A DNA stretch of 64,000 nucleotides from Williamsia sp. 1138 (GTDB lineage: Bacteria; Actinomycetota; Actinomycetes; Mycobacteriales; Mycobacteriaceae), in contig NZ_MJEJ02000050.1 of assembly GCF_002095435.2 (NCBI RefSeq), positions 1-64,000 of the forward strand. Reading direction: 5' to 3'. The position numbers and the translations under genes are program-made. Below the pieces are notes generated by a model. The model saw nothing but the letters and a program-made list of their open reading frames with translations. It was not told the origin of the DNA and ran no database searches. Of this stretch, positions 12,233 to 33,996 are shown piece after piece (within the stretch, counting starts at the first letter, position 1; each line of letters starts with the position of its first letter).

Positions 12233-13201
12233 GTGATCAACCAACCACCGGCCGGAGCGGTCGACTCGGCTATAGTCGTGCACGGTCTTGGCAAGAGTTT
12301 CGGGACCCACCGCGCGTTGGACCACGTCGACCTGACGGTCGCCCGGGGCACGGTCTGCGGAGTGCTCGGTCCCAACGGCGCGGGCAAGACCACCCTCGTC
12401 CGGATGCTCACGACGCTGCTGCGGCCGGACTCGGGTACCGCGCGCATCCTCGGTCGGGACCTGGTGCGCGATGCGCCTGCCATTCGGGCGCTAATTTCCT
12501 TGACCGGCCAATATGCGTCGGTCGACGACGACCTCACGGCGGTGGAGAATCTCGATATCTTCGGCAGGCTTCTCGGACTCCGGGGAGCCGCCTCTCGTTC
12601 GCGAGCGCGAGATCTCGTGGAGGAGTACGGACTCACCGCCGCGGCCAGTCGGCCGGTCCGCACGTACTCGGGTGGCATGCGCCGACGTCTCGACCTGGCA
12701 GCGAGCATGATTCGCAGACCAGAGCTGCTCTTTCTCGACGAGCCCACCACCGGACTCGATCCGCGCACGCGATATCAGTTGTGGGAGATGGTCCGAGGCG
12801 TGGTGAGACAGGGAACCACGGTCCTGCTGACCACCCAGTACTTGGACGAAGCAGATGCGCTCGCCGATCATCTTGTGGTGATCGACCACGGTCGTGTGGT
12901 CGCCGACGGCACACCAGAATCCCTCAAGCGCTCCGTCGGGAACTACGCCCTGTCGGTCACCCTTGCGACGGCGGCAGATCGTGGCCGTGCGACCGAGATC
13001 ATCGCGCTCGTCCTCGACGGTCCCGTAGAATACGACGAGCGCACCCGTCAGCTCACGGTCTCGGTGTCGGCCTCGGCCACGTCGGCGCAGGTGATCGCTG
13101 CCCTCGCGGAGGAATCGATCGAGGTACAAGAGCTCAGCGTGCACAAGCCGTCGCTAGACGACGTCTTCTTCGCGCTGACCGAAGAACAGAGTCCGGCATG
13201 A
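12233..13201 (+). CDS. DrrA-like ABC transporter ATP-binding protein (exporter 1)
   Basis: A 322-residue ATPase of the daunorubicin/lipid-export type. Walker A GPNGAGKT, Q-loop LTGQYASVDDDLTAVENL, signature YSGGMRRRLDLAAS, Walker B LLFLDEPTTGLD and switch segment TTQYLDEADALAD are intact. A C-terminal regulatory domain ends in VHKPSLDDVFFALT, typical of DrrA. It is coupled to the permease gene by an ATGA overlap. It is paralogous to the ATPase at 28119, and both resemble DrrA, the PDIM exporter ATPase of mycobacteria. Context suggests export of an acylated glycolipid; the substrate is unproven. Confidence 0.92.
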   Translation: MINQPPAGAVDSAIVVHGLGKSFGTHRALDHVDLTVARGTVCGVLGPNGAGKTTLVRMLTTLLRPDSGTARILGRDLVRDAPAIRALISLTGQYASVDDDLTAVENLDIFGRLLGLRGAASRSRARDLVEEYGLTAAASRPVRTYSGGMRRRLDLAASMIRRPELLFLDEPTTGLDPRTRYQLWEMVRGVVRQGTTVLLTTQYLDEADALADHLVVIDHGRVVADGTPESLKRSVGNYALSVTLATAADRGRATEIIALVLDGPVEYDERTRQLTVSVSASATSAQVIAALAEESIEVQELSVHKPSLDDVFFALTEEQSPA

Positions 13202-14004
13202 CCATCCGGACGATCTCCGAAGACGACCGCACGCTCGGGCACATCACCGCGCGAAAAGCGTTGCTCGACACCGCGACGATGGCTCGACGTGGCCTGCTCA
13301 AGTTCAAACACACGCCGCAACAATTGCTCGACGTGATCGCCGTACCCGTCGTCTTCACCGTGATGTTCGCCAACATCTTCGGCGGGGCGATCGCAGGGAC
13401 CGTGGATGCCTATCTCCCCGTCCTCATTCCAGGGGTACTGGTGAACATCGTGATCACCAGTACCGTCGTCGTCGGAGTCCAGCTGCGCGTCGACATCGAC
13501 AAGGGTGTTTTCGATCGCTTTGTGTCGTTGCCGATCTCGCGCATCGCCCCCCTATCTGGATCATTGGTCGCAGCGATCGTCCGTTACGTGATCGCGATCG
13601 CCATCACGCTGGCGGTCGGATTGGCCATGGGATATCACCCGGCAAGCGCGCTCGGCACGATGGCAGCAGTGGCGCTCGTGGTCTATGCCGCGTTCTCGTT
13701 GAGCTGGGTGTTCGCCTTCATCGGCGTCCTGATGAGCAAGGCCTCCTCGATCCAGGGCATCTCGGCGCTGACTCTAACGACCATCGGGTTCATGTCGAAC
13801 GCTTTCGTACCGCCCGAGAGCATGCCTGATTGGATGCGGACGATTGCCGAGGTCAATCCGATTTCTCACCTGGTGTCGGCGGTACGTTCCCTGGCAAATG
13901 AAGGTCAGGCGGACATGCACATCGTCTGGTCGTTGCTAGGGTCCACCCTGGTGATCGCGGTGATCGCCCCACTGACCGTCAGGACATACCTCCGACGGCT
14001 GTGA
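13198..14004 (+). CDS. DrrB-like ABC-2 type permease (exporter 1)
   Basis: A 268-residue ABC-2 family membrane subunit with six predicted TM helices starting near residue 45 (LDVIAVPVVFTVMFANIFGG). The ABC-2 signature region PISHLVSAVRSLA lies before the last helix, and GVFDRFVSLPISRIAPL lies in the cytoplasmic coupling region. The start ATG overlaps the ATPase stop (ATGA). It is closely paralogous to the permease at 27286 (shared GLLK-KH-PQQL-DV and LPVLIPGVLV/LPLLIPGVLV segments). It forms exporter 1 with the preceding ATPase, and the acyltransferase gene follows after 24 nt in the same operon. Confidence 0.9.
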   Translation: MTIRTISEDDRTLGHITARKALLDTATMARRGLLKFKHTPQQLLDVIAVPVVFTVMFANIFGGAIAGTVDAYLPVLIPGVLVNIVITSTVVVGVQLRVDIDKGVFDRFVSLPISRIAPLSGSLVAAIVRYVIAIAITLAVGLAMGYHPASALGTMAAVALVVYAAFSLSWVFAFIGVLMSKASSIQGISALTLTTIGFMSNAFVPPESMPDWMRTIAEVNPISHLVSAVRSLANEGQADMHIVWSLLGSTLVIAVIAPLTVRTYLRRL

Positions 14005-14028
14005 GCGACGACGTACGAAGGAGTCCCG

Positions 14029-32646: not shown

Positions 32647-32652
32647 CCGCGC

Positions 32653-33996
32653 TTGCACGTCACCACCATTGACCACTACCTGCCCGATCCCGGCAACCTG
32701 ATGCAGTGGACGGTCGATTCCGGAGCCGTCCGACCTGTCGCCTCGTCGGTACCCCCCTCGTTCAACCAGGGATTCCACCTGAGCGGGTCTGCGGACGAAA
32801 GTACCTGGCTTGCAGCAGCTTTTGACATCGATGGGCGCGTCGACGTCAAGGCGCTCGAGCGGGCCTACCGACTGTTGATCGCACGCCACGGCACGTTGCA
32901 CAGTGCGTTCGTGCGGCGCGACGGCGAGATCGAACGCGAACTCTACGACCCAGCCGAGCTGATCCTGAACCAGGAGCCGATCGCCGCGGCGGACTCACCC
33001 GAGGGATTGCGGGATCTGCTGTGGAGCACGCTGAACACGGCGTGCCACCCGTTCGGATTCCCCGCCTACCTGCTGGCGGCGATCGACCGGGCCGAGCGCT
33101 CGACCGTCTTCTGCGGGTTCGACCACGCTCATGTGGACGCGTACTCGATGTCGATCATCATCGACGACCTCCATCAGCTCTATCGCGGTTGCCTCGACGA
33201 ACCCGGCGGCTTTGTCGCCGACACGATGCCGATGGCGGGCAATTTCGTCGATTACTGCGCCGCCGAGGCGGAGGCCGCGGTGATCGGCCCCCGGGACCCG
33301 AGGATGCGCGCCTGGCTGACGTTCTTCGACGAGCACGACAACACGCCTCCGGGCTTCCCGCTCGACCTGGGACTCCCGCCAGGGCAGTCGGCACCCCAGG
33401 CCGTGGACCTGCGCGACCTGCTCGATGCGGACACCACCGCCGCCTTCGAGGTGTTCTGCCGGAGCAACGGAGCATCGGTGTTCGCGGGCATCCTCGCCGC
33501 GATGGCACGGTGCGTCCGGGTTCTCGGGGGCGGCCCCCAGATGTCGCTACTGTTCCCACTGCATACCCGCCGCTCCGAACAGTGGCGCGGCGCGGTCGGC
33601 TGGTTCACGACCAACGCGCCGATCAAGGTGGCCGCGACCGAGGACTTCAGCGAGTCCGTTCAGCGTGCCGGTCCGGCACTGCGCGCGGCGGTAGCCCTCG
33701 GTGAGGTGCCCGTGCCGCACGTACTCGCCGCCATGGGAGGCCTCAACCATCAGCGCAACGACATCTTCATGGTCTCGTTCGTCGACTACCGCGGACTCCC
33801 CGGCGCGTCGGCGCACGAGGACATCGGGGCACACCACGTGTCCAACGTGACCACGGCCGACGACGCGCAATTCTGGATATCGCGGACCGAGCGCGGACTC
33901 GCCCTGCGCAGCCGGTATCCGGACACCGACGCCGCCGCGACGGTCGTCACATCCTTCCTCGATGAACTCTCCCGATTCCTGCGGCAACCCTGGTAG
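32653..33996 (+). CDS. PapA-like acyltransferase, triplet B position 3 (HxxxDA)
   Basis: A 447-residue paralogue of 19589. HVTTIDHYLPDPGNLMQW at the N-terminus, catalytic motif DHAHVDA (His about residue 158), HTRRSEQWRGAVGWFTTNAPI, FMVSFVDYR and AQFWISR are conserved. The start appears to be a TTG with GAGGTG about 7 nt upstream; a stop codon lies in frame just before it and no ATG/GTG is available near the conserved N-terminus. Last gene of triplet B, 76 nt before sseA. Confidence 0.78.
   Translation: MHVTTIDHYLPDPGNLMQWTVDSGAVRPVASSVPPSFNQGFHLSGSADESTWLAAAFDIDGRVDVKALERAYRLLIARHGTLHSAFVRRDGEIERELYDPAELILNQEPIAAADSPEGLRDLLWSTLNTACHPFGFPAYLLAAIDRAERSTVFCGFDHAHVDAYSMSIIIDDLHQLYRGCLDEPGGFVADTMPMAGNFVDYCAAEAEAAVIGPRDPRMRAWLTFFDEHDNTPPGFPLDLGLPPGQSAPQAVDLRDLLDADTTAAFEVFCRSNGASVFAGILAAMARCVRVLGGGPQMSLLFPLHTRRSEQWRGAVGWFTTNAPIKVAATEDFSESVQRAGPALRAAVALGEVPVPHVLAAMGGLNHQRNDIFMVSFVDYRGLPGASAHEDIGAHHVSNVTTADDAQFWISRTERGLALRSRYPDTDAAATVVTSFLDELSRFLRQPW

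Follow-up and report, generated by a model that had tools for sequence, protein, structure and literature searches.

Acylated trehalose oligosaccharide lipids have been described from Rhodococcus fascians/BS-15, Nocardia corynebacteroides SM1 and Tsukamurella (PMC4365757; all papers cited here by PMC number were available in excerpt). They have a trehalose core, extra sugars and several ordinary fatty acyl groups, and their chemistry goes back to 1989 (Powalla et al., as cited by PMC4365757). This is also the type of product proposed here for a locus of the soil bacterium Williamsia sp. 1138 that lies between maf and sseA, from the start of drrA1 at 12,233 to the end of papA6 at 33,996 in a 64,000-nucleotide stretch (contig NZ_MJEJ02000050.1, positions 1 to 64,000; hereafter the window). 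The locus combines acyltransferases related to trehalose-acylating PapA proteins with glycosyltransferases (GTs) and exporters. The excerpt of PMC4365757 gives chemistry only; the window has three GTs and a second gene module. The lipid chemistry is already in the papers that we found; a gene locus for acylated trehalose oligosaccharides is not.

The lipooligosaccharide (LOS) loci of Mycobacterium marinum and M. kansasii (PMC4403928, PMC7261415) also extend an acyltrehalose by GTs, as proposed here, but they contain polyketide synthases (PKS), a fatty-acyl-CoA synthetase and MmpL, and comprise at least 38 genes in M. marinum. None of these families was found in the window locus, where the exporters are of the DrrAB type. 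Among the open reading frames (ORFs) of the interval that were scanned there was no family match to PKS, nonribosomal peptide synthetase (NRPS) adenylation or carrier domains, fatty acyl-AMP ligase (FAAL) or MmpL, and the absence of PKS, NRPS and FAAL genes asserted in an earlier, sequence-only reading of this DNA is borne out. We therefore rejected identity with an LOS locus (no PKS, acyl-CoA synthetase or MmpL) and with a glycopeptidolipid locus (no NRPS). PapA enzymes act on trehalose in the assembly of diacyltrehalose/polyacyltrehalose and sulfolipid in M. tuberculosis, as we propose for the window. There the acyl chains are made by PKS, export is by MmpL and no extra sugars are known to be added; a surface enzyme (Chp1/Chp2) may finish the acylation.

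O-antigen and capsule loci, which belong to other organisms and another chemistry, have conserved flanks, interchangeable contents and exchange tracts. The maf-sseA site resembles them in its working only, and exchange was seen here in one lineage. We tentatively suggest, as an idea somewhat more likely to fail than to hold, that in mycolic-acid bacteria the maf-sseA interval serves as an exchangeable, O-antigen-like site for surface glycolipids, where whole or part modules are swapped by homologous recombination through the conserved flanks, with the GT count of a module fixing how many sugars trehalose receives.

In the open-licence literature we found no paper describing the whole locus. 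PMC8396431 comes closest: it reports four clustered papA genes in Rhodococcus sp. I2R, tied by its authors to succinoyl trehalolipids. Their spacing fits the window, so the claim of the sequence-only reading that no such cluster had been described was nearly right; the available part of that report does not mention adjoining GT genes or WS/DGAT-like (WS) genes, unlike what is seen in the window. The paper also names TlsA of Rhodococcus sp. SD-74 alongside the succinoyl trehalolipids, whose genetics it calls 'still poorly understood'. An NRPS cluster of strain SK11 has a papA3 near a glycosyltransferase (excerpt of PMC13206832) and may or may not be this locus. The accessible part of PMC9009618 names no such locus.

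Two paralogous modules

The interval had been read as one inserted 22-kb locus. Its gene list is confirmed with exact coordinates (two DrrAB-type exporters, three WS genes, six papA genes, two GT1 genes, one GT2 gene and one antigen 85 (Ag85)-type gene), but the locus consists of two paralogous modules, of which module A is widespread, and ≈14.7 kb of the window has been exchanged. Module A comprises WS2, WS3, GT1a, GT1b, GT2, drrB2, drrA2 and papA4–6. Module B comprises drrA1, drrB1, WS1, the Ag85-type gene and papA1–3, and has no GT in the window genome. Nine acyltransferases were counted correctly within the interval; there are ten of these kinds once papA7 just outside it is included. papA7 is also found in many of the surveyed genomes that have neither module.

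Pairwise comparison of the translated genes, none of which had an internal stop, paired papA1 with papA4 (38% identity), papA2 with papA5 (36%) and papA3 with papA6 (34%), while drrA1 and drrA2 share 56% identity, as do drrB1 and drrB2. A quick tree of 98 PapA rows fell into three classes, each including a module-B clade (8 rows, of which 7 are distinct, as two are identical W. maris genes) supported by Shimodaira–Hasegawa-like approximate likelihood ratio values of 99–100. These clades, with members from the window, other Williamsia and Gordonia, are separate from the module-A genes. Since every class has its module-B clade, the papA triad moves as a unit; it was duplicated prior to the divergence of Williamsia and Gordonia or else passed between these genera. 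In a tree of 60 GT1 rows, GT1a and GT1b are distinct from each other and from a module-B GT1, a Rhodococcoides GT1, an extra GT1 of some Gordonia and a Tsukamurella GT1, which are likewise separate. The module-B GT1 clade has no member in the window.

The six PapA proteins of the interval carry the Condensation domain PF00668 (E 2e-14 to 2e-21), free-standing and without adenylation or carrier domains in the ORF scan, and the HxxxD motif is kept in all seven PapA proteins of the window; both features are those of the PapA family. The closest solved relative of PapA4 and PapA6 is M. tuberculosis PapA2 (PDB 6aef), named as a trehalose-2-sulfate acyltransferase. Both GT1 proteins have an EryCIII-like_C domain, and the solved relatives of GT1a include GtfB and a sterol 3-beta-glucosyltransferase; the third GT belongs to family GT2 (PF00535). 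The Ag85-type protein, with a signal peptide judged by eye, falls by sequence into the Ag85/Cmt family (nearest solved structure Corynebacterium Cmt1, with E 2e-55 across residues 29–332; Ag85C, E 3e-27).

WS1, WS2 and WS3 are homologous to one another in pairwise comparison and had no Pfam family match at E up to 1. WS3 matched TIGR02946 with E 4e-8 and 32.7 bits, far under the curated cut-off of 309.95 bits, which is why the three are called WS/DGAT-like and not members of that family; the window's WS2 had no TIGR02946 match at E 0.01. The family was matched by 10 of the 28 rows of an alignment made up of 27 WS2 rows (the window's included; 26 of the 31 WS2 loci found were put in) and WS3, with a best E of 2e-12, and HxxxDG is invariant across the alignment. 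Matches to the solved structures of PapA5 (E 0.013) and WSD (E 0.042) were non-significant. Taken with the homology among the three and the invariant motif, these weak matches suggest that WS1–3 are divergent WS/DGAT-like acyltransferases.

The site was surveyed in stretches picked, non-randomly, to cover genera from 251 genomes. Homologues were counted by BLASTP with the window's proteins as queries at ≥45 bits, and dissimilar interval genes such as a Rhodococcus major facilitator superfamily (MFS) transporter stand outside the tally. Module A lies at the same site in six of eight Williamsia genus-mates. In the other two, the Williamsia genomes G003 and G005 (L120, L121), both modules are absent and papA6 and papA7 are kept beside sseA-sufE, likely as a remnant of module A or in a second role of these genes. 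Both modules lie between maf and sseA in W. maris, W. herbipolensis, W. serinedens, W. deligens, an uncultured Williamsia and a Williamsia metagenome-assembled genome; W. maris, W. herbipolensis and relatives have them in the window's order, and their module B has its own GT1. In W. sterculiae, module B is beside sseA and module A elsewhere, ≈150 kb apart on one contig (G023 C8; loci L025/L026 at about 341–354 kb and L114 at about 496–510 kb).

When loci were found via GT2 in named records, 39 of 43 also carried GT1 and PapA genes in the stretch. These belong to Williamsia, Gordonia, Nocardia, Rhodococcoides/Rhodococcus, Millisia, Antrihabitans and one record labelled Kitasatospora arboriphila NRRL B-24581 (NZ_JNYV01000009.1, L037). 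That record has a Williamsia-type locus with an accD5 96% identical to the window's, and the strain or its label is probably Williamsia. The four loci without GT1 and PapA genes (L072–L075) are from Tsukamurella, where the GT2 homologue (43–44% identity) has no locus homologue in its stretch; the neighbours in L072 are VanY-type and GDSL-lipase genes.

Twenty Gordonia stretches hold module B alone (3/20), module A (1/20) or papA7 only (16/20) between maf and sseA, and the three with module B alone have no drrAB in the interval. Two other Gordonia stretches, L127 (G135) and L128 (G123), have module-B genes without the maf-sseA flanks. Rhodococcus (g39) has two PapA genes at the site in 13 of 15 stretches, and BLASTP found GT and WS homologues in none of the 15. 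An MFS transporter (PF07690) replaces DrrAB between maf and sseA in the Rhodococcus stretches L129 (13845–15725) and L191 (10571–12289). Among the Tsukamurella-type stretches (g46 and T. conjunctivitidis), the site holds one GT1 in 8/10, PapA without a GT in 1/10 and papA7 only in 1/10. The interval of T. conjunctivitidis (L119, 11960–19157) is filled by an analogous but different module, made up of three acyltransferases of the PapA5 type (PF16911) and a single GT1 that falls in its own clade.

PapA, WS and GT homologues were absent from the interval in all eight genomes of genus g45 (four of them with a maf-sseA gap of 3.7–7 kb), in 8/8 stretches of g38/g3/g8 and in 3/3 of g36. Nine further genera (14 stretches) had a PapA-like gene beside sufE in seven stretches, without WS, GT or triad. 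L201 has PapA beside sufE, with the maf side outside the stretch; L139, whose stretch ends early, shows four PapA in one reading and three in the tally, and L027, also short, shows three. Five of seven Williamsia-like stretches in the tally lack sseA. Related genera thus fill maf-sseA with differing acyltransferase sets. The conservation proposed as a check in the sequence-only reading is found for the two modules, A in Gordonia, Nocardia, Rhodococcoides and others and B in other Williamsia and Gordonia. The meaning it gave to the position between accD5 and accA3 is weak, because the same flanks occur in genomes without a module.

Proposed product and sugar number

On balance we favour the view that the product of the locus is an acylated oligosaccharide lipid based on trehalose, probably for the cell surface, for which we infer the substrate, the order of steps, the identity and number of the sugars and the export. 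Trehalose from general metabolism would first be acylated with ordinary acyl-CoAs by PapA and WS enzymes; a PF00982 protein (OtsA family) is present in the window genome. GT1a, GT1b and GT2 would then add one sugar apiece, probably glucose from UDP-glucose, so that with the two sugars of trehalose module A may give about five sugars. DrrAB2 would move the product across the membrane. Module B may form a related ester of trehalose or add further acyl groups to one, with export by DrrAB1 and completion of the acylation outside the cell by the secreted Ag85-type enzyme. The multiply acylated glycolipid built from ordinary acyl-CoAs, as first suggested from the gene list, is supported by acyltransferases and GTs without PKS or NRPS, by the match of PapA4 and PapA6 to PapA2 and by the papA spacing of strain I2R.

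An alternative that we rate only a little short of an even chance is that the two modules make two separate surface lipids without interaction, an oligosaccharide lipid by A and a plain trehalose polyester by B. It overlaps with the reading above except in the role of module B. The modules do occur apart, B without a GT in the three Gordonia stretches and A alone at the site in the six Williamsia genomes, and in the window each has its own DrrAB. Yet those Gordonia stretches have no drrAB in the interval, and module B comes with a GT1 in W. maris, W. herbipolensis and relatives, where it stands together with A in the order of the window. It is unlikely that the acceptor is another lipid (a carotenoid, steroid or glycosyl-glyceride) which the GT1 enzymes glycosylate before acylation. 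The sterol 3-beta-glucosyltransferase among the solved relatives of GT1a and the lack of a trehalose gene among the scanned locus genes would fit such an acceptor, but PapA4 and PapA6 match an enzyme named for its action on trehalose-2-sulfate, and the link to strain I2R concerns disaccharide esters whose sugar is taken to be trehalose (PMC8396431).

An acylated trehalose oligosaccharide can be compared with the lipids of known strains. Rhodococcus sp. I2R makes di- and trisaccharide succinic esters, whose third glucose is assigned as beta and was placed after the BS-15 structure (excerpt of PMC8396431). The stop-to-stop spacings of its papA genes in the same excerpt (1448/1407/2995), compared by spacing alone, are nearest to those of seven one-GT loci among 37 ranked and resemble the layout papA4-papA5-papA6-(sseA-sufE)-papA7. 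Of 55 stretches, the 37 with four PapA genes were ranked, and three genomes occur there twice or more; a Gordonia module-B locus came 8th and the other seven one-GT loci 9th to 22nd. GT1 enzymes invert the anomeric configuration, which fits the beta-glucose of the third sugar in I2R.

The product of N. corynebacteroides SM1 is a trehalose-based pentasaccharide succinic octaester, while R. fascians NBRC 12155 and a Rhodococcus sp. have a trisaccharide succinic tetraester and Tsukamurella (T. tyrosinosolvens) has tri- and tetrasaccharide esters (PMC4365757). N. corynebacteroides is the former name of R. corynebacteroides (PMC9233653). R. corynebacterioides genomes carry a module-A type locus like that of the window, with three GTs, and with the two sugars of trehalose these give five, as in the pentasaccharide. 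We set beforehand the prediction that the R. fascians clade would have one GT. In 21 of 37 Rhodococcoides genomes that were read (20 stretches were added after R. corynebacterioides), three GTs were found in four (R. corynebacterioides, R. trifolii and loci equal to L044 and L056). Outside this three-GT clade, 14 of 17 have one GT1 and no GT2 and three have no module. In Rhodococcus (g39) the 0 GT at the site in 15/15 stretches were set against disaccharide products.

Acyl groups can be counted in a similar way. A one-GT locus has six acyltransferases (two WS and four PapA), and the BS-15 lipid has six ester bonds by count from the available descriptions (succinate, hexanoate, two acyl and two acyloxyacyl; PMC4365757, PMC8396431). 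This agreement is suggestive only, and the pentasaccharide octaester breaks a rule of one enzyme per ester.

Exchange at the maf-sseA site

At fourfold silent sites the window differs from W. soli and Williamsia sp. 1135 by 15–27% in the flanking genes and 18–30% in drrBA2 and papA4–7, versus 42–56% in WS2, WS3, GT1a, GT1b and GT2. Between W. soli and sp. 1135 the divergence of these last five genes is 16–19%. Pooled fourfold sites of WS2, WS3, GT1a and GT1b were compared with those of drrB2, drrA2 and papA4–7. For window and W. soli, 436/842 versus 336/1409 sites differed (52% vs 24%, p 5e-41), and for window and sp. 1135, 437/847 versus 281/1413 (52% vs 20%, p 2e-54). The control pair W. soli and sp. 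1135 gave 175/1017 versus 213/1454 (17.2% vs 14.6%, p 0.09).

The edges of the divergent region are sharp. Identity to W. soli falls from 90–95% to 64% at ≈12,180, in the final codons of maf. The right breakpoint is inside GT2, where identity rises at ≈26,900 to W. soli and at ≈26,840 to sp. 1135; the identity of GT2 to W. soli is 68–77% below 26,900 and 88–91% above. GT2 is a mosaic gene, with a native N-terminal part and an imported remainder (the C-terminal part). Module B lies within the same bounds, together with WS2, WS3, GT1a, GT1b and the C-terminal part of GT2. In contrast to its closest relatives, the window lineage has thus imported from a relative ≈14.7 kb, more than half of the cluster, comprising module B together with a divergent block of WS and GT genes. 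The replacement looks like a single event.

A higher mutation rate or weaker constraint in the WS and GT genes could in principle give such a contrast in place of recombination, and between W. soli and W. limnetica these genes are indeed somewhat more diverged than drr and papA (40–56% vs 38–42%). We consider this very unlikely, since the contrast in the control pair is small against the 52% of the window in both comparisons, divergence shifts abruptly at two points, where maf ends and within GT2, and module B falls between them.

Several observations weigh against the proposed product, the exchangeable site and the counting of sugars by GTs. The scan of the locus genes turned up neither a trehalose gene nor a succinyltransferase gene, and our literature search found no Williamsia glycolipid chemistry. 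A search of 13 of the 14 one-GT loci of Rhodococcoides showed no clear tract of raised divergence; in pairs with a core divergence below 30%, WS/GT exceeded the core in 6/9, with the papA triad similar. As this search gave little, the claim of exchange depends on one lineage and on the differences in content. Strain SM1 differs from the sequenced R. corynebacterioides strain. The four three-GT Rhodococcoides cluster in accD5 and sseA trees, which are shown without support values, the one-GT and three-GT groups were drawn post hoc, and none of the genomes read bears the name R. fascians. Some Gordonia with module A hold an additional GT1 that is not tied to a sugar count. The prediction of two GTs for Tsukamurella failed with one GT1 at the site in most stretches and the GT2 homologue elsewhere, and its tetrasaccharide does not fit a GT number equal to sugars minus two. 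The octaester requires more acylations than six acyltransferases provide, unless some act twice.

A GT1 and GT2 pair at the Tsukamurella site as the source of the tetrasaccharide was dropped, as the GT2 is on another contig beside VanY and GDSL genes. That the cluster is silent or decayed and has no product is most improbable given genes without internal stops, HxxxD in every PapA of the window and related loci in many genera.

Feature coordinates and meaning

The features of the locus and its flanks are collected in Table 1. Among the flanking genes, Maf (PF02545), a carboxyltransferase (PF01039, accD5), SufE (PF02657) and a biotin carboxylase (accA3) were recognised. Farther along the window, at 44457–48499, two adjoining genes resemble the two subunits of a hydantoinase/oxoprolinase, judged by eye from their translations.

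Table 1. Features of the maf-sseA interval and its flanks in the window of Williamsia sp. 1138.
Feature	Position	Strand	Evidence and remarks
maf, left conserved flank	11394..12194	+	PF02545; last codons contain left recombination breakpoint ≈12,180
Imported recombination tract, ≈14.7 kb	12180..26900		Right edge about 26,840–26,900; reference W. soli and Williamsia sp. 1135
drrA1, DrrA-type ATP-binding cassette (ABC) ATPase, module B	12233..13201	+	PF00005/PF13732; TIGR01188 344.6 bits (cut-off 312.45)
drrB1, ABC-2 permease, module B	13198..14004	+	PF01061
WS1, putative divergent WS/DGAT-like acyltransferase, module B	14029..15384	+	26% identical to both WS2 and WS3 (E about 1e-32); no Pfam match
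Secreted Ag85/Cmt1-type acyltransferase, module B	15526..16560	+	PF00756; Cmt1 E 2e-55; alternative start 15541 possible
papA1, PapA class A, module B	16652..18163	+	PF00668; paralogue of papA4, 38%; PapA tree
papA2, PapA class B, module B	18166..19581	+	PF00668; paralogue of papA5, 36%; start uncertain
papA3, PapA class C, module B	19589..20950	+	PF00668; paralogue of papA6, 34%
WS2, putative WS/DGAT-like acyltransferase, module A	20935..22281	-	H136/D140/G141 invariant in 28 rows; 33% to WS3
WS3, putative WS/DGAT-like acyltransferase, module A	22308..23636	-	TIGR02946 E 4e-8, below cut-off
GT1a, GT-B glycosyltransferase, module A	23633..24922	-	PF06722/PF03033
GT1b, GT-B glycosyltransferase, module A	25052..26344	+	PF06722/PF00201
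GT2, GT-A glycosyltransferase, module A	26357..27232	-	PF00535 E 5e-30; right breakpoint within gene
drrB2, ABC-2 permease, module A	27286..28122	-	PF01061 E 9e-27; TIGR00025 below cut-off
drrA2, DrrA-type ABC ATPase, module A	28119..29093	-	PF00005/PF13732
papA4, PapA class A, module A	29642..31120	+	PF00668; M. tuberculosis PapA2 E 5e-19
papA5, PapA class B, module A	31180..32646	+	PF00668; PapA tree
papA6, PapA class C, module A	32653..33996	+	PF00668; M. tuberculosis PapA2 nearly full length, E 3e-32
sseA sulfurtransferase, right conserved flank	34073..34969	+	Best NCBIfam match 3-mercaptopyruvate sulfurtransferase, below cut-off
sufE, conserved flank	34966..35382	+	PF02657 E 2e-29; coding start approximate
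papA7, seventh PapA, outside 12233–33996	35379..36833	+	PF00668 E 2e-18; between sufE and accA3

The sharp recombination tract means that exchange has taken place at maf-sseA in one lineage, and the proposal offers a countable prediction, GTs versus sugars, at one genomic site. If it is true, the structure of surface lipids and biosurfactants in Williamsia, Gordonia, Rhodococcoides, Nocardia and Rhodococcus could be predicted from their genomes and tested.

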